This document shows positions 56,737 through 63,270 of a stretch of DNA of 64,000 nt, one piece after another. Below the pieces are notes generated by a model. It searched no databases and was not told where the DNA came from. It saw only the letters and a program-made list of their open reading frames with translations. Source of the DNA: Spirosoma sp. KCTC 42546 (GTDB lineage Bacteria > Bacteroidota > Bacteroidia > Cytophagales > Spirosomataceae); the NCBI RefSeq assembly GCF_006965485.1, contig NZ_CP041360.1:5622501-5686500 (forward strand), in the 5' to 3' direction. Position numbers and translations under genes: made by a program. Position 1 is the first letter of the stretch, and every line of letters begins with the position of its first letter.

Positions 56737-56792
56737 CTAAGGACTTTCTAATAACTGCTTAAGCCCATTCTAAGCAGGTCCGGCGTACTTTG
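56737..56792 (+). promoter_or_regulatory. CTAAG array P1 and promoter of the TreZ-like gene
   Basis: Four boxes start at 56737 (CTAAG), 56748 (CTAAT), 56759 (TTAAG) and 56770 (CTAAG), each exactly 11 bp apart. CTTTG of a likely Bacteroidetes -7 element (GTACTTTGG) starts at 56788, 18 bp after the last box. The start codon is 92 bp further. Just past the expected transcription start lies a perfect palindrome CAGGTTAACCTG (56801-56812). Confidence 0.8.
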
Positions 56793-56884
56793 GTTTAGAT
56801 CAGGTTAACCTGACTGACCAGTGTAGGCAGATAAATCGCCTTACAGAATTGCTCGGTAGCAGCATTTGTTTATCGCATCAACGT

Positions 56885-58021
56885 ATGAAAAATCAACCCG
56901 ATATAAAAAAACGAACGCTTGGCGTTACCTTTTCCACTGACCACCAGGCAGACGTCACGCTATGGAATCCGCTTGCCAAAAAGGTAGAACTCTCCATCAG
57001 AGGCCGATCTATATCCATCCCGTTAGTGAACGATCGTTCAGGATACTGGCATCTGGAAACCGATCAGCTTAAACCCGGTGACCTATACACCTTCACACTC
57101 GACGATGAGAAGATATGCGCTGATCCGGCATCGCTGGTCCAACCGCAGGGTGCGTATGGCCCTTCTCAGGCAGTAGATACAAACAAATTCTACTGGGAAG
57201 ATTCCTGTTGGGTCAACCCGCCCCTGGATGAATACGTTATCTATGAACTCGATATGAGTACATTTAGCCCTGAAGGAACTTTTGACGCCGTTGTTAAAAA
57301 GCTGGGAGAACTGAAAAGTCTGGGCATCAATGCGTTACTTATAAAGTCCGTTTCATCCTTTCCAGGGTCGCCTAACGAGCTGTTTATCTATGCCGTACAA
57401 GCCAGTTACGGTAGTCCTTATCAATTACAACGGCTAATCAATGCCTGTCACTTTGAAGGAATGGCCGTTATTCTGGATGTAAACTATGCGAAGATCGGCA
57501 GACAGAATGACCAGCTAAAGGCTTTCCGCTCCGGCAAACAAAAGGCGGAACGAAATGGGTCAAACGGGACCAATGATGAGCATGGAGAAGCCGGGCGTCG
57601 ATACCTTATCGAAAACGCGCTGATGTGGTTCCGGGATTTCCATATCGATGCACTCCGGCTAGAGGCAATTTATGCCCTACCCGATGCTGAAGAAATTTTA
57701 ACGGATATCCGGACATATACGAATCAGTTAACAGCCCTGACCGGCAATCACCACTGCCTATTGGTCGAGCACGAACCGCAGAACGAGTCGGTTACCGAAA
57801 AAACGGCTACCCCAAATGCTGAGCGGGAAGGCCCATTCGAACCGGTATCAACTACCGAGCGATACGACAGTTACTGTTCTGATTACCAGCCTAGTAAACT
57901 GTCCATTAAAACGTATCGAGAGGATTATTTATACGACGATCACTTCTCGTCCGTATTGCGTGAGTTATTTGGACGACAGGCCGAACCCGACGAATCGCGG
58001 GGGCTTCTAAGGAGTTTCTAA
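56885..58021 (+). CDS. Shortened TreZ-like GH13 protein with altered catalytic residues
   Basis: 378 residues from ATG 56885 (MKNQPDIKKRTLGVTFSTDH). An N-terminal CBM48/E-set domain (about 8-100) precedes a partial TIM barrel like malto-oligosyltrehalose trehalohydrolase: EYVIYELDMSTFSPEGTF, IYAVQASYGSPYQLQRLI, VILDVNYAKIG and IENALMWFRDFHIDALRLEAIYAL. The nucleophile Asp of the usual GLRLDAVH is Glu260, and the usual YNH of barrel strand 3 reads YAK. It ends after YREDYLYDDHFSSVLRELFG, before the NHDQVGNR block, so ~200 residues are missing. The stop codon is formed by the first boxes of the next promoter. Hydrolase activity is doubtful; a sugar-binding role is possible. Confidence 0.78.
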   Translation: MKNQPDIKKRTLGVTFSTDHQADVTLWNPLAKKVELSIRGRSISIPLVNDRSGYWHLETDQLKPGDLYTFTLDDEKICADPASLVQPQGAYGPSQAVDTNKFYWEDSCWVNPPLDEYVIYELDMSTFSPEGTFDAVVKKLGELKSLGINALLIKSVSSFPGSPNELFIYAVQASYGSPYQLQRLINACHFEGMAVILDVNYAKIGRQNDQLKAFRSGKQKAERNGSNGTNDEHGEAGRRYLIENALMWFRDFHIDALRLEAIYALPDAEEILTDIRTYTNQLTALTGNHHCLLVEHEPQNESVTEKTATPNAEREGPFEPVSTTERYDSYCSDYQPSKLSIKTYREDYLYDDHFSSVLRELFGRQAEPDESRGLLRSF

Positions 58022-58062
58022 GTATTGCTTAAGTCCCTTCTAAGTCGCTGGTACGTCCTTTG
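58007..58062 (+). promoter_or_regulatory. CTAAG array P2 and promoter of the trehalose synthase gene
   Basis: Boxes at 58007 (CTAAG), 58018 (CTAAG), 58029 (TTAAG) and 58040 (CTAAG), 11 bp apart; CTTTG starts at 58058, 18 bp after the last box, and the start codon at 58099. The first two boxes overlap the end of the TreZ-like gene and supply its stop codon. Confidence 0.82.
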
Positions 58063-58098
58063 TTAACTACACTGGGCGTTCAGTAGCGCATCAACTCT

Positions 58099-60315
58099 AT
58101 GAAGACTTCTAAAGCCTCATTTAAACGATTATTGATTGTTTCTTACCGGCTTCCGTTCACTATTCAGCAAACTAATAATGGTTCCGAACTCCAACAGAAT
58201 TCAGGCGGGCTGGTTTCGGCAGTGCTGTCGATGGCGGAGCAGATGGGCCAGAATCAGGGGAGTTTACCCACAAAAATTCACTGGGTTGGGCATGGTGATC
58301 AGTCACTTCAACAACTCGACTCATCCGCCCTGGAAAATGATACATTTGTGGCCCATCCGGTTTTTATGGATGAGGCTGTTCATAAAGGGTTTTACGAAGG
58401 ATTTAGCAATGATTTAATCTGGCCTTTATTTCACTACTTTCCGTCCTACGCATCGTTTAAAGAGCACGATTTCGACTGTTACAAGCAGGCCAATACCCGT
58501 TTTCTGGAGGAACTAACGGCTTTAATCGAACCTGGCGATTTAGTCTGGATTCACGATTTCCAGTTGATGCTGCTGCCCGATATGCTGCGCCAGGTCATGC
58601 CTGAGGCAACGATTGGCTACTTCTTTCATATTCCTTTCCCAACCTATGAGATCATAAAACTATTGCCCCGCACCTGGCGGCAAAGCCTCATCAATGGAAT
58701 TCTAGGAGCCGATGTCGTAGGGTTTCACACGACCGATTACGTGCAGCATTTTATGCAGAGCGTTTCAGAGGTTCTGGATCTGCCGATTATTAATCAACGT
58801 ATAATCCTGCCCGACCGGGCGGTGATTGTCAACGCCTTCCCGATTAGCATCGATTTTAATAAGTTCAACTCAAGTGGACAAGAGGCTGACGTTTTTGCCA
58901 CCCAGCAATATTTCATGAATTTGCTACGGCACAACAAGATCATTTTTTCGGTTGATCGGCTCGATTACACCAAAGGAATTACCTCTCGATTGCTAGGGTA
59001 TGAACGTTTTCTGATTCAGCATCCTGACTGGCATGATAAAGTAACCTTTGTGATGACGGTAGTGCCATCACGCGATAAAATCGCTCAATATCAGGAGTTA
59101 AAACGGGAGATCGAAGAAACCGTTGGCCGTATCAATGGCCTGTTTGGTACCATTGGCTGGCGGCCTATCGTGTATTCGTACCGATCGCTAACCTTTACCG
59201 AGCTAATGGCCTTGTATACGGCCTGCAATATTGCCCTCATTACACCTGTTCGCGATGGGATGAACTTGGTTTGCAAGGAGTTTGTGGCAAGCCGCCATGA
59301 TCTCAAGGGCGTGCTGATTTTGAGTGAGTTAGCCGGAGCCGCTCAGGAGTTACGGGATGCCATCATTATTAATCCTACCGACACACAGGAAGTAGCTGAT
59401 GCCATTGATCAGGCATTAGTCATGCCATTGGCCGAACAGGAACGACGCTTGCAGCACATGCGAAAGCATCTACAAAACCATAATGTTTTCCGATGGAGTC
59501 ACGATTTTCTTTCCGCATTCAACGATATGATTATCAACCAGCCCAGTTTAGAAACCGACCTGCCGATTCAACCATTTATCAGCGCGTTTAGTGACGCCCA
59601 TAAACGGCTGCTTTTAGTTGACTTCGACGGCACACTAGCCCCCCTAGTCAATGACCCGGCCGATGCCCGACCCTCTGAAACATTACAGACTATATTACGG
59701 AATCTGGCCGAGAGTAGCGATGTTGTGGTTATCAGTGGCCGAAACCGATCGTTTCTGGAGAAGACGTTTATGGGTATTCCCGTTTTCCTGGTCGCCGAGC
59801 ATGGAGCTTTCCTGAAAAAACCGGAACAGCCCTGGCAGCAACTTGATCTATCGGCCGATGATTGGGTCGACCCGGTGCGCTCAACGATGAATTATTATGT
59901 TGATCGTTTTCCAGGTTCATTTATTGAAGGAAAAGAAACGGCCATTGCCTGGCACTATCGGAAAGTGGAAACTGATGATGTTGAAGGACAGGCTATTGAC
60001 CTGGCGACCCAGTTACGGCGCGTTTCTTCCTCTATTCCACTCACGGTTATTCAGGGCAATAAAGTGGTGGAAGTAAAACCCGCCCAACACAGTAAGGGAA
60101 CTGTAGCACTCGCTATTGCCGAACAAAAACCCTATGACTTTATTATTAGTATCGGCGACGATACGACCGATGAAGATATGTTCCGGCAGCTTCCGAACTG
60201 GGCGTACACCATGAAAGTGGGGTCAGGGATGTCATTTGCCCGGTATCGGCTGGCTCGTCAGCAGGACGTAGAAACGCTGCTGCAACGCATGAATGATGAA
60301 TTGATCGAGGTCTGA
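58099..60315 (+). CDS. Bifunctional trehalose-6-phosphate synthase/phosphatase (OtsA-OtsB fusion)
   Basis: 738 residues. Residues about 10-480 are a GT20 synthase: [14 protein letters not shown] near the UDP-glucose loop, [52 protein letters not shown] (about 287-306) and [19 protein letters not shown]. Residues about 498-730 are a HAD-type trehalose-6-phosphatase: [18 protein letters not shown] (catalytic Asp pair), [21 protein letters not shown] and [16 protein letters not shown]. The enzyme makes trehalose from UDP-glucose and glucose-6-phosphate via the phosphate, for osmotic or desiccation protection. All key residues appear present. Confidence 0.95.
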
Positions 60316-60324
60316 TTCTTCGGC

Positions 60325-60531
60325 TTATCGTTTCGTGACCACCTCATCTTTTAACACATTTTCTGGGCCTTCGCCCCGTTTTTCTTTTTCCTTTAAACGG
60401 CGGAGTAAGTGTTCGTAATGCGGGGGCAATTTGTCGGTATCAGAGACTTTAACGCCAAACCTGGCGCTGGTAAAATAACTGAGTACACCGAGTATACTAA
60501 TTATGATTGCGATAATAAGAAACGTCATCAT
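60325..60531 (-). CDS. Small single-span membrane protein
   Basis: 68 residues. An N-terminal span (MMTFLIIAIIISILGVLSYF) is followed by a charged cytosolic tail with PPHYEHLLRRLKEKEKRGEG. No family recognised. It converges with the trehalose synthase gene (9 bp between ends) and is preceded, beyond a 90-bp hairpin region, by a minus-strand CTAAG array (P4), so it probably belongs to the same regulon as the trehalose genes. Confidence 0.7.
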   Translation of the reverse strand: MMTFLIIAIIISILGVLSYFTSARFGVKVSDTDKLPPHYEHLLRRLKEKEKRGEGPENVLKDEVVTKR

Positions 60532-60562
60532 GCTCGTTCGGTTTTAGTAGAGCGCGAGAAAT

Positions 60563-60635
60563 CGCTTATTCATGAGGGTTGACCCAACCCGATCAGTGAG
60601 AACGTAGGCGCACGGGTCAACCTCATGAATAAGCG
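60563..60635. repeat. Long inverted repeat with one bulge in the 60531 leader
   Basis: CGCTTATTCATGAGGGTTGA (left arm, 60563-60585) pairs with 60614-60635 over 22 bp with one bulged G. It lies between promoter P4 and the small membrane protein start, so it would be in the 5' untranslated leader. Confidence 0.85.
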
Positions 60636-60655
60636 CCTATGCACGCTTAATTCCC

Positions 60656-60711
60656 GAAAAGTATAGTTGAGTGATAAGGAGGAACTTAACGAAACCTTAG
60701 AATTTGATTAG
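60656..60711 (-). promoter_or_regulatory. CTAAG array P4 on the minus strand
   Basis: Read leftward: CTAAT (60711-60707), CTAAG (60700-60696), TTAAG (60689-60685) and CTTAT (60678-60674), each 11 bp apart, then a CTTTTC element starting at 60661, 17 bp after the last box. The order including TTAAG as third box is the same as in P1 and P2. It points toward the small membrane protein at 60325-60531 and may also affect the divergent response-regulator gene. Confidence 0.7.
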
Positions 60712-60822
60712 AGCCCAAAACAATAGGCTCGCTAAGCGCTTAATTACCTGTGTACCCAGTTTACTCATCACCATAAGACGGGCAACTGGTTGCCGAACAA
60801 ACTACCCGTTGCACCACCAACT

Positions 60823-61500
60823 ATGAAACTCCTAATCGTTGAAGACGAACCCAAAACGTTGCAGGCAATCCAGCAGGGGCTGGAAGAAAGCCAGTTTGAG
60901 GTCGATATTGCCTACGATGGGCTCATTGCCAAACGACTGGCTCTGAAAAATAACTATGCCGCCATTATTACCGACCTGATCCTGCCGGGTTTGAATGGCT
61001 ATGAACTCTGTCGGCAACTACGGGCCGAAGGGTTAACTACACCCATTCTGATGCTGACCGCCCTTGGCGAAACCGAGGATAAAATTTCGGGCTTCGATGC
61101 CGGTGCTGACCAATACCTGACCAAACCGTTTCAATTTTCTGAACTGCTGGCGCGCGTACGATCACTGACAAAGCGCGGCACGCAGGTCTCGCTAACGGCT
61201 CAAACCTTACGCTACGGCGGCATTGAGATGAATCTGGATGCCAAAACCGTTACCCGCGACGAACAACCGATTGAACTGACAGCCCGCGAGTTTGCGCTCC
61301 TGGAGTTTCTCATGCGCAACCAGGGACGGGTTCTGTCGAAACCATCCATTGCCGAACACGTCTGGGATTTGAATTTCGATACAGGCACCAACGTCGTAGA
61401 AGTGTACATCAATTACCTGCGCAAAAAGATCGACCGCGATTTCCCCAAAAAGCTGATTCACACCCACTTCGGCATGGGGTATATGTTTAAAGAAGAATAA
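60823..61500 (+). CDS. OmpR/PhoB-family response regulator
   Basis: 225 residues from ATG 60823 (MKLLIVEDEPKTLQAIQQGL), chosen over an upstream TTG because the receiver domain starts immediately. The phosphoacceptor is Asp51 in AIITDLILPGLNG, with Thr in LMLTALGE and Lys in YLTKPFQF. The winged-helix effector spans about 128-225 (LTAREFALLEFLMRNQGRVL; NVVEVYINYLRKKID; HTHFGMGYMF). OmpR-type regulators bind direct repeats about 11 bp apart as dimers in tandem, which fits the CTAAG arrays around it. The kinase gene follows 99 bp later. Confidence 0.93.
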   Translation: MKLLIVEDEPKTLQAIQQGLEESQFEVDIAYDGLIAKRLALKNNYAAIITDLILPGLNGYELCRQLRAEGLTTPILMLTALGETEDKISGFDAGADQYLTKPFQFSELLARVRSLTKRGTQVSLTAQTLRYGGIEMNLDAKTVTRDEQPIELTAREFALLEFLMRNQGRVLSKPSIAEHVWDLNFDTGTNVVEVYINYLRKKIDRDFPKKLIHTHFGMGYMFKEE

Positions 61501-61502
61501 AA

Positions 61503-61599
61503 AAGAGGAGGAAAGGGAAGAGAGGGAGGAAGGAGAAAAGGAGGAAATTACCGAACCCTTCCTCCCTCTCCTCCTTCCTCCCTTTCCTCCCTCCTTTCC
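61503..61599. repeat. Homopurine/homopyrimidine inverted repeat between regulator and kinase
   Basis: Purine-only left part (61503-61548) and pyrimidine-only right part (61557-61599) built of GGAGGAA-type words; pairing is imperfect with a small internal insertion. The pyrimidine arm runs right up to the kinase ATG, so there is no Shine-Dalgarno site. Confidence 0.85.
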
Positions 61600-62979
61600 A
61601 TGACCATTCGCAAACGGCTAACGTTACGCTTCACGAGCCTGGTATCCAGTATTATCCTGCTGGCGTTTGTGAGTATCTATGCCTTTTGCTGGTTTTTCAT
61701 TTCATCCGACTTTTACCGACGGCTCGACCGGAAAGCCAATACCACGGGCGATATGCTCATTCGGCATCGCCTGGATGCGCAACTGATTCGGCAATTGGGG
61801 CGAATCCGGAAAGATCAGTTACCCAATCAGAATATCATGGTGTTCGATAGCCGGGACTCGATCATTTTTATTACCAATGAACGGCTGCCGATCACCATAC
61901 CCAAATCGGTGCTGGCCGATATCCGGCAGGATAAACAAAAGGATTTTCAACAGAAAGGGTACTATCTGTCGGGCACCCGGTTCATGACGGCTTCGGGCCA
62001 GTATGTGGTCATTGCCAGTGCGGTGAACGTTTATGGCGATGAGTTTCTACGGCGGCTTTTATGGGCCTTAGCGGTATTATTTTTCCTGATTGTGGGCATT
62101 ACTGCCTTTTCGGGCTGGTTTTTCGCAGGAGATGCCCTGCGACCCATGCAGCAGATTGACCAGATTGTCAGTGATATATTTCCACGTAACCGGGATGAGC
62201 GCCTGCTCATCAATCAAGACGACGATGAGATCAGTCGACTATCATCAACTATCAATCGATTACTGGACCGGGTCACGGAGTCGTTTCGATTACAACGGAT
62301 GTTTGTGGCCAACGTATCGCATGAGTTGAAAAATCCGCTCACACAAATCAGTTCGCAATTGGAAGTAAGCTTGTTAAAACACCGTGAACCAGAGGCTTAT
62401 CAAAAAACGATTCGTTCGGTACTGGATGATGTGGGTGATCTGGCAACGCTTACCCATGAGTTATTGAAACTCTCTCAGGTGAATCAGGAAGATGCCATCG
62501 GGCTCTTAACCGATACCGTTCGACTGGACGAAATCGTTTGGGATATTCGGGATGAGGTAACAGCCATCAATCCTCGTTACCAAGTAACCATCGAATTCGG
62601 TGCGCTTCCCGATGACCCCGACCAGCTAGCGGTGCAGGGCAATAAAACCTTACTGGCAACGGCTTTAAAAAATCTGACGGAAAATGCCTGCAAATTTTCT
62701 GATGATGGGCAGGCGCTGATTCACGTTAGTTTTGATCCCAACTGGTTAACGATTAGCATTCAGAATAGGGGCCAATCCATCCCATCAGCCGACCTACCCT
62801 ATATTTTCGAGCCCTTTTACCGCAGCCGCCAAACCGCCGATGTGCGCGGTTACGGCGTAGGTCTTTCGCTTGTGGAGCGTATCATTCGGCTGCATCAGGG
62901 CAAAATCCAGGTTACCTCAACGGCGGGCAAACCAACCATATTTAGCATCGAGTTATCCCGGCAGACGCGCCAATTCTAA
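61600..62979 (+). CDS. Membrane sensor histidine kinase (CusS-like layout)
   Basis: 459 residues. Two membrane spans (LVSSIILLAFVSIYAFCWFF about 13-32 and LLWALAVLFFLIVGITAFSG about 153-172) enclose a ~120-residue periplasmic sensor region. HAMP follows (about 180-225), then HisKA with the phosphoacceptor His241 in NVSHELKNPLTQISSQLE, and the ATPase with N box LKNLTENACKFSDD and G boxes GYGVGLSLVERIIRLHQG. It is the cognate kinase of the OmpR-type regulator just upstream. Its stop codon lies in the first CTAAG box of array P3. Signal unknown. Confidence 0.93.
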   Translation: MTIRKRLTLRFTSLVSSIILLAFVSIYAFCWFFISSDFYRRLDRKANTTGDMLIRHRLDAQLIRQLGRIRKDQLPNQNIMVFDSRDSIIFITNERLPITIPKSVLADIRQDKQKDFQQKGYYLSGTRFMTASGQYVVIASAVNVYGDEFLRRLLWALAVLFFLIVGITAFSGWFFAGDALRPMQQIDQIVSDIFPRNRDERLLINQDDDEISRLSSTINRLLDRVTESFRLQRMFVANVSHELKNPLTQISSQLEVSLLKHREPEAYQKTIRSVLDDVGDLATLTHELLKLSQVNQEDAIGLLTDTVRLDEIVWDIRDEVTAINPRYQVTIEFGALPDDPDQLAVQGNKTLLATALKNLTENACKFSDDGQALIHVSFDPNWLTISIQNRGQSIPSADLPYIFEPFYRSRQTADVRGYGVGLSLVERIIRLHQGKIQVTSTAGKPTIFSIELSRQTRQF

Positions 62980-63031
62980 GCAGTTTCTAAGCAGTTTATC
63001 AGTGAATCCTAAGTCGTGCTTAGCAACTTTG
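62976..63031 (+). promoter_or_regulatory. CTAAG array P3 and promoter of the small membrane protein
   Basis: Boxes at 62976 (CTAAG), 62987 (CTAAG), 62998 (degenerate ATCAG) and 63009 (CTAAG), phased at 11 bp; CTTTG starts at 63027, 18 bp after the last box. The first box provides the TAA stop of the kinase gene. The expected transcription start near 63036 precedes ATG 63061. Confidence 0.78.
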
Positions 63032-63060
63032 GCTATCCCTACGTATCTAACTATAACGCG

Positions 63061-63270
63061 ATGATGACTGAAAAAACCGCAATTCAACCCTACTCCCCGT
63101 TCTTTCCCCCAGGTCCGGCAACCCCGTCGAAGACGCGCCCTAAATCAAAATACATGTACGAAGAAGACCCAAAAAAGCCAGACTGGTTACTCTTATTAAT
63201 CAGTGCTTTGGTGCTCTTGACCCTGCTCATTGCCTGGTTTGTCGATATTCCTGCCTTATTCCACTACTAG
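63061..63270 (+). CDS. Small single-span membrane protein
   Basis: 69 residues from ATG 63061 (MMTEKTAIQPYSPFFPPGPA) or ATG 63064. An in-frame GTG at 63016 is rejected because it would lie upstream of the inferred promoter element. A Pro/Lys-rich cytosolic N-terminus is followed by KKPDWLLLLISALVLLTLLI and a short periplasmic end. No family recognised. It is directly downstream of CTAAG array P3 and the two-component genes; its last 15 bp overlap the convergent DUF389 gene. Confidence 0.72.
   Translation: MMTEKTAIQPYSPFFPPGPATPSKTRPKSKYMYEEDPKKPDWLLLLISALVLLTLLIAWFVDIPALFHY

Follow-up and report, generated by a model that had tools for sequence, protein, structure and literature searches.

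Four-box CTAAG arrays as probable operators of a two-component stress and trehalose regulon in Spirosoma

The genome of Spirosoma sp. KCTC 42546 contains, towards the end of a 64,000-nucleotide stretch of contig NZ_CP041360.1 (forward-strand positions 5,622,501 to 5,686,500; this whole stretch is called the window and its own numbering is used below), genes for a response regulator and a sensor histidine kinase, a fused trehalose-6-phosphate synthase/phosphatase (OtsAB), a TreZ-like protein and two small membrane proteins. Placed among these genes are four arrays of CTAAG-like boxes with 11-bp spacing, each followed by an element resembling a -7 promoter box (Table 1). These arrays, and the regulon that they appear to mark, are the subject of this work.

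Table 1. Genes, arrays and promoter elements of the locus, in window coordinates.
Feature	Position	Strand	Remarks
Array 1, four-box	56737..56774	+	CTAAG CTAAT TTAAG CTAAG, 11-bp spacing; promoter of the TreZ-like gene
-7-like element of array 1	56788..56792	+	CTTTG; read from the sequence
TreZ-like protein, 378 aa	56885..58021	+	CBM48 and partial GH13; Glu in place of the nucleophile Asp; lacks the C-terminal part
Array 2, four-box	58007..58044	+	Every box exact; promoter of OtsAB
-7-like element of array 2	58058..58062	+	CTTTG; read from the sequence
OtsAB fusion, trehalose-6-phosphate synthase/phosphatase, 738 aa	58099..60315	+	Pfam Glyco_transf_20, Trehalose_PPase
68-aa protein	60325..60531	-	One N-terminal transmembrane segment (hydropathy); found in 10 genomes
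-7-like element of array 3	60657..60661	-	CTTTT; read from the sequence
Array 3, four-box	60674..60711	-	CTAAT CTAAG TTAAG CTTAT; separates the regulator gene from the divergent 68-aa gene
OmpR/PhoB-type response regulator, 225 aa	60823..61500	+	Pfam Response_reg, Trans_reg_C; proposed reader of the arrays
Tyr198 codon, recognition helix	61414..61416	+	Aligned with Tyr220 of Mycobacterium tuberculosis (Mtb) PhoP; proposed reader of the first box base
Sensor histidine kinase, 459 aa	61600..62979	+	Pfam HisKA, HATPase_c
Array 4, four-box	62976..63013	+	CTAAG CTAAG ATCAG CTAAG; box 1 overlaps the kinase stop codon
-7-like element of array 4	63027..63031	+	CTTTG; read from the sequence
69-aa protein	63061..63270	+	One C-terminal transmembrane segment (hydropathy); found in 24 genomes; PDWLL...VDIP core conserved

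The four arrays and their -7-like elements are real, as a first-pass annotation of the window had observed. The places and the exact 11-bp spacing that it gave are correct, but its description of all boxes as CTAAG or TTAAG holds only for the array at 58007; box 2 deviates in the first array, box 3 in the fourth, and boxes 1 and 4 in the minus-strand copy. The third box is indeed TTAAG in three of the four arrays, and the reported distances were recovered as well: counted from the first base of the last box, CTTTG begins at 18 bp in three arrays and CTTTT at 17 bp in the minus copy. When the four-box pattern was searched in the window at three mismatches or fewer, six matches were obtained, two of which are the 58007 array read in a shifted register, where 0.07 were expected; none of 100 shuffles reached six. 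Two arrays run into the preceding genes: the kinase stop codon is the TAA inside box 1 of array 4 (62976-62980), and the stop codon of the TreZ-like gene lies inside box 2 of the OtsAB array (58018-58022). Across related loci, the stop of the preceding long frame falls in box 1 in 31 of 61 cases.

The same search of the 8.66-Mb single contig, with the mirrored pattern as control, returned 14 matches versus 3. Eleven of the 14, among them all five with at most one mismatch, fall either in the window and its right flank or in a second trehalose region (588-604 kb); the other three lie at 357,621, 4,936,807 and 8,164,539, the last one belonging to a paralogous regulator. A looser three-box search of the genome (two mismatches or fewer) did not rise above its control (49 matches vs 84) and was not used to define the regulon. 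The second region has arrays in front of a TreS-maltokinase fusion, behind which a trehalase follows, and in front of genes for a TreZ-like protein of 598 aa, a lipoprotein-like small protein and a 186-aa membrane protein adjoining an MscS-type gene. Past the right edge of the window weaker arrays stand before a 305-aa protein and an RND adaptor. The MscS-type gene (L015:1023-1526) stops after 167 aa, within the beta domain, and is possibly truncated.

Both Pfam domains of the response regulator, the receiver and the C-terminal winged helix Trans_reg_C, score above their cut-offs (95.9 and 89.1 bits), and the locus displays a trait of the OmpR/PhoB family: direct repeats spaced by about 11 bp lie close to the cognate promoters, and orthologous loci carry them at conserved places. 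The regulator stays below the cut-offs of the more specific models for PmrA (NF007928; 161.1 bits, cut-off 330), the heavy-metal CopR/CusR/SilR subfamily (TIGR01387; 239.4 bits, cut-off 279.2) and the osmolarity regulator OmpR (NF007005; 148 bits, cut-off 331).

Occurrence of the arrays was compared with that of the regulator in 36 genomes of the genus, in 23 others for the four-box pattern, and in 43 further genomes of the family, which were our own selection. Regulator orthologues form a clean group of 84-100% identity in 29 of the 36 genus genomes, with the next paralogues at 63% or less, and a kinase match lies beside the regulator in 28 of these 29 loci. At one mismatch or fewer, the four-box array is present in 30/36 genus genomes and 0/23 others (mirrored control: 0 in the genus, 1 elsewhere), and it was matched in 27 of the 29 genus genomes with the orthologue. 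The three-box pattern matches all 29, with a median of 4 matches and a control total of 1, and the seven genus genomes without the orthologue give counts of 0, 0, 0, 0, 1, 1 and 3. Among the 43 family genomes, three-box matches were found in 15 of 18 with an orthologue of at least 80% identity, 3 of 9 at 66-74%, and 1 of 16 without it (control 0/43). One other genus of the family follows the same rule: the searched genomes comprise three that have the regulator, with 4, 4 and 6 matches, and a single one that lacks it, with 0. Combined, the three-box pattern occurs in 44/47 genomes with an orthologue of at least 80% versus 4/23 without, and array and regulator remain linked from genome to genome. 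Arrays scattered over unrelated promoters and missing near orthologous regulators, the pattern that the first-pass annotation had named as contrary to its proposal, were not found in the genus and family genomes compared. Its interpretation of the arrays as the regulon of the neighbouring two-component system is supported by this comparison of sequences.

Even the deviating boxes are conserved. In 23 of 25 loci with a regulator identity of at least 84% and a post-kinase array, box 3 of that array reads NTCAG, and box 4 of the divergent array is CTTAT in all ten carriers among the 29 regulator loci.

The genes preceded by arrays were surveyed in relatives' loci totalling 936,521 bases, the majority retrieved for the very reason that they bear arrays, which gave 151 array readings (six being one array read on both strands) versus 0 mirrored controls. 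In readings aligned on the array, both T of the -7 element (positions 52-53) are 91-92% conserved; TTTG starts 14 nt past the last box in 70 of the 151 and 13 nt past it in 16. The flavobacterial -7 box is given as TAnnTTTG, at -12 to -5 (PMC9723704, in part). With genes classified by automatic clustering, which missed some TreZ-family members where a short frame was taken, arrays precede OtsAB in 25 genomes, a TPR protein in 20, the 69-aa protein in 13, TreZ-family genes in at least 12, the 186-aa membrane protein in 12, a small lipoprotein in 8 and TreS-maltokinase in 7. An unnamed 186-aa protein, the RND adaptor and the 305-aa type follow with 5 genomes each, as does an apparent outer-membrane efflux factor (assigned by eye) near a paralogous regulator. 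The window's OtsAB fusion passes its equivalog model (NF011071) with 961.3 bits at a cut-off of 634. In some relatives, OtsAB and TreS-maltokinase are divergent and share an intergenic region in which each has its own array (L109:14897/14953, L128:6972/7077).

The first-pass annotation had spoken of a stress/trehalose regulon. The trehalose theme stands, but the regulon is wider than that; given that the targets reach to the TPR protein, the RND adaptor, lipoproteins and the membrane protein beside the MscS-type gene, it is better called an osmotic/envelope-stress regulon. The regulon appears to be new, although its kind is already known.

The catalytic residues of TreZ are Asp, Glu and Asp. 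The homology of the window's array-preceded protein to TreZ was correctly noted before, but this copy is a paralogue that is truncated and lacks the catalytic Asp pair, and neither it (236.7 bits) nor the second, 598-aa copy (320.1 bits) reaches the family cut-off (TIGR02402; 538.8 bits). Across an alignment of 17 array-linked TreZ-like proteins, in which a 208-aa fragment of a frameshifted gene was counted as a gap and two TreS rows were dropped, the nucleophile Asp is kept in 2, the second Asp in 1 and the Glu in 15; none of the 17 has both Asp together. Bona fide TreZ retains all three residues in 28/28 aligned copies, and two more outside the alignment (L347, L366) also have them by eye. 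TreZ above the cut-off is found in 34 of the 36 genus genomes and TreY in 31; the source genome has them at 7,572,449 and 2,101,907, where the array scans list no array. The ratio of non-synonymous to synonymous substitution rates (dN/dS) is 0.08-0.29 in ten array-linked pairs (dS >1 in two of them); of the bona fide pairs, two yielded values, 0.06-0.07. The array-linked proteins, though without the Asp pair, thus evolve under purifying selection, with dN/dS well below 1, and look like maintained pseudoenzymes, some of them truncated like the window copy; they include the window gene and L015:11308-13104. They could perhaps bind maltodextrin or one of the trehalose enzymes. The frameshifted gene (L214, 8,026,617-8,027,842) comes from a genome, G015, whose regulator is 100% identical to that of the window.

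The two small single-span proteins are conserved, and neither matched any Pfam or NCBIfam family. In the 69-aa protein the N-terminus is variable and the C-terminal hydrophobic segment is conserved between PDW and VDIP. The divergent array is present in 10 of the 29 regulator loci, nine of which also have a homologue of the 68-aa protein, and in none of the 29 does the 68-aa gene occur without this array. Judging from their position, it is possible that the small membrane proteins feed back on the kinase.

From the arrays, their spacing, the -7-like element, the co-occurrence with the regulator and the conserved targets, all read directly from the DNA, we infer binding, phosphorylation, activation, a signal and feedback. 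The arrays are very probably the operators of the adjacent regulator, which the kinase would activate under osmotic or envelope stress and which would then drive the trehalose, TreZ-like, small-protein and envelope genes. Sensing of such stress by the kinase would lead to phosphorylation of the regulator, which may then occupy the four TTCTAAG half-sites, one per helical turn, as two tandem dimers arranged head to tail; this arrangement fits the geometry of PhoP and PmrA. With TTTG placed at -8 to -5, the array would extend from about -60 to -23. The downstream dimer, on the downstream pair of boxes, would then lie over the -33 region, where the regulator could substitute for the -33 contact and activate transcription. 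Cover of the -33 region combined with a -7 element at a near-fixed distance is an activator arrangement, as in PhoB-type promoters. Predicted targets are OtsAB, TreS-maltokinase, the presumably dead TreZ-like proteins, the two small membrane proteins as possible feedback parts, and the envelope genes.

Several observations weigh against this model. The Fisher test of 44/47 versus 4/23 (p = 1.7e-10) ignores relatedness. Three genomes with an orthologue of at least 80% have no three-box match (G121, which is 71% complete, G112 and G085), although single-locus scans did find arrays beside the regulator in G112 and G085. Conversely, a three-box match occurs in 4/23 genomes without the orthologue, and the four-box pattern matches three of the seven genus genomes that lack it. 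Concerning the signal, the top NCBIfam score of the regulator is for the heavy-metal subfamily, albeit below its cut-off, and the signal could therefore be something other than osmotic or envelope stress; likewise, the RND adaptor and the TPR protein do not point to osmotic stress alone.

The arrays might instead be read by a paralogous regulator, or by a shared network of several, rather than mainly by the neighbouring one. The recognition helix is nearly unchanged in paralogues of 51-61% identity, several of which have 11-bp arrays of their own; some with a Tyr at residue 198 also use CTAA boxes. Two of the genomes that match without the orthologue (G003, G019) carry the CTAAG array 4-5 kb from a paralogue of 54-55% identity. 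However, paralogues of 53-60% also occur in genomes where the array search gave at most one match (G001, G005, G034), and the matches follow the orthologue, so that we consider this reading unlikely. Less likely still is that the arrays are mainly repressor sites: the array at 60711 lies between divergent genes and could act on the regulator gene too, but the near-fixed -7 distance with the -33 region covered is the arrangement of an activator, as in the PhoB-type promoters mentioned above.

The arrays could also be 11-bp tandem minisatellites that arose by repeat expansion and have no regulatory role. An exact-pattern scan of an 84,980-genome collection found at least 119 stretches, many of them minisatellite-like and outside Spirosomaceae, and we inspected 25, our own choice among 80 of these. 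Of these 25, 23 came from outside Spirosomaceae, and in 22 of them the spacers resemble one another on visual inspection, as they would in 11-bp tandem repeats (L251 being less clear); because of this the plain pattern is unspecific in other phyla. In the remaining two, from Spirosoma fluviale and Rudanella, the spacers diverge and a CTTT or ATTTG element is present. At the locus described here, the spacers vary between boxes, box 3 deviates in a conserved way, the -7 element keeps a near-fixed distance and, from species to species, arrays accompany the same genes; on these grounds a minisatellite origin was rejected, and it is extremely improbable. Two Bacteroidales metagenome-assembled genomes, UBA3630 (L219, L222, L232, L237, L241, L246, L272, L275, L282) and Paludibacter STB_57 (L233, L259, L284, L292), contain many dispersed CTAAG repeats of this 11-bp, minisatellite-like type. 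Control by the neighbouring two-component system remains our preferred reading of the Spirosoma arrays.

CTAAG arrays had been taken as the mark of this system. They are tied to the orthologue, but they are not unique to it, and paralogous systems use related arrays. Among the sister regulators, several groups possess 11-bp arrays of their own, often directly behind the kinase and about 2045-2070 bp from the regulator start; no array was found in 30 of 110 loci scanned. The loose locus scan gave 97 arrays to 15 mirrored controls, which makes single weak arrays unreliable; under a strict YTAAG scan, 470,886 bases contained no mirrored control. A paralogue of 61% identity (8,162,260; L416:1761-2429) has Phe198 and a fourfold TTAAG array behind its kinase (8,164,539; L416:4040); among the genus genomes inspected, the boxes of this paralogue are all TTAAG or TTAAA in 10, and in an eleventh (L498) box 4 is CTAAG.

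The first base of the boxes varies with residue 198 of the recognition helix. Of 107 distinct regulators, 75 with a clear labelled array were kept, where the label C requires just two C among the four boxes, and 32 were left out (29 without an array and three mixed cases, L197, L417 and L428, all Tyr with one or no C). Residue 198 predicts the first box base in 74 of the 75, Tyr going with C (CTAA; 48/48) and Leu or Phe with T (TTAA; 5/5 and 21/22); the sole exception, L486, is a Phe regulator with two C and a weak upstream array. Over all arrays of the loose scan, first bases under Tyr are C 167, T 72, A 21 and G 4, under Phe T 99, C 2 and A 3, and under Leu T 20. No other alignment column does better, and Asn190, Glu193, Val194 and Tyr195 fail to separate the classes. 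Some other columns also separate them fairly well (127 with 2 errors; 184, 216 and 155 with 4 each), and residue 198 is therefore singled out by structure as much as by count. In Mtb PhoP, Tyr220 hydrogen-bonds the C that is the second base of TCACAGC (PMC4832192, in part), and in our alignment of TCACAGC with TCTAAGN this base is the C of CTAAG.

On the tree, there are three changes at residue 198 and three of array type; the three independent pairs all agree once L486 is dropped, a number that cannot reach significance (p = 0.25). In a wider sample, TTAAT-type arrays occur at the corresponding post-kinase place for five Phe-type regulators of two other families. In that sample, whose loci end about 2.17 kb past the regulator start, 19 of 31 loci had no array, the scan gave 15 arrays to 9 mirrored controls, and exceptions were a Phe regulator with TTAAG TTAAG TTAAG CTAAG (L498) and a Tyr regulator with a single C (L499). 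This control and the mixed rows lower our expectation, and we regard the chances as evenly balanced that residue 198 is a natural single-residue switch, in which the Tyr hydroxyl would read the C of CTAA and Phe or Leu would go with TTAA. Such a switch might partly insulate the paralogues of Cytophagales from each other, with the arrays behind many kinases recording the specificity. A residue-base switch of this kind appears to be new.

How DNA specificity diverges among sister response regulators is a long-standing question. Pairing many regulators with their sites by sequence alone is rarely possible; the post-kinase array does so for dozens of loci, and one candidate residue is indicated that could be swapped in a single experiment. 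The regulon stands and is wider than the first-pass annotation stated, with the candidate one-residue specificity switch and the apparently dead TreZ family as additions. To our knowledge, little is known of gene regulation in Spirosoma, for which a stress regulon can now be predicted, along with a pair of conserved small membrane proteins encoded next to the kinase and a family of TreZ proteins, apparently dead yet maintained, that are predicted to be made together with trehalose enzymes. In the open-licence literature, we found no report on trehalose, two-component or osmotic regulation in Spirosoma, and no report of this system in work on recognition-helix specificity, CTAAG repeats or Cytophagales regulons, or in 8 of 91 listed items on pseudoenzymes and trehalohydrolase.

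Among known systems, PmrA (BasR) shares the OmpR/PhoB family, the 11-bp period and nearly identical half-site letters, CTTAAT and CCTAAG separated by 5 bp (PMC3973317, in part), but it has two half-sites and polymyxin-resistance targets, and the Spirosoma regulator scores below the PmrA cut-off. Mtb PhoP, among the closest solved structures to this regulator, binds a 7-bp motif with a strict 4-bp spacer as a tandem dimer through contacts of helix alpha8 (PMC4832192, in part), a geometry to which we liken the arrays; it differs in reading TCACAGC and is not an orthologue. KdpE recognizes 6-bp direct repeats with 5 bp between them (PMC3264566, in part) and has in common with the present arrays the repeat geometry and the osmotic theme, whereas its half-sites are TTTATA/TTTACA and its target is a potassium pump. 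CopR/CusR (TIGR01387) differ in that the targets found here are not metal genes, efflux-type genes excepted. Finally, TreZ itself, the maltooligosyltrehalose trehalohydrolase, is homologous to the array-linked proteins, which lack its Asp pair and score below its cut-off.

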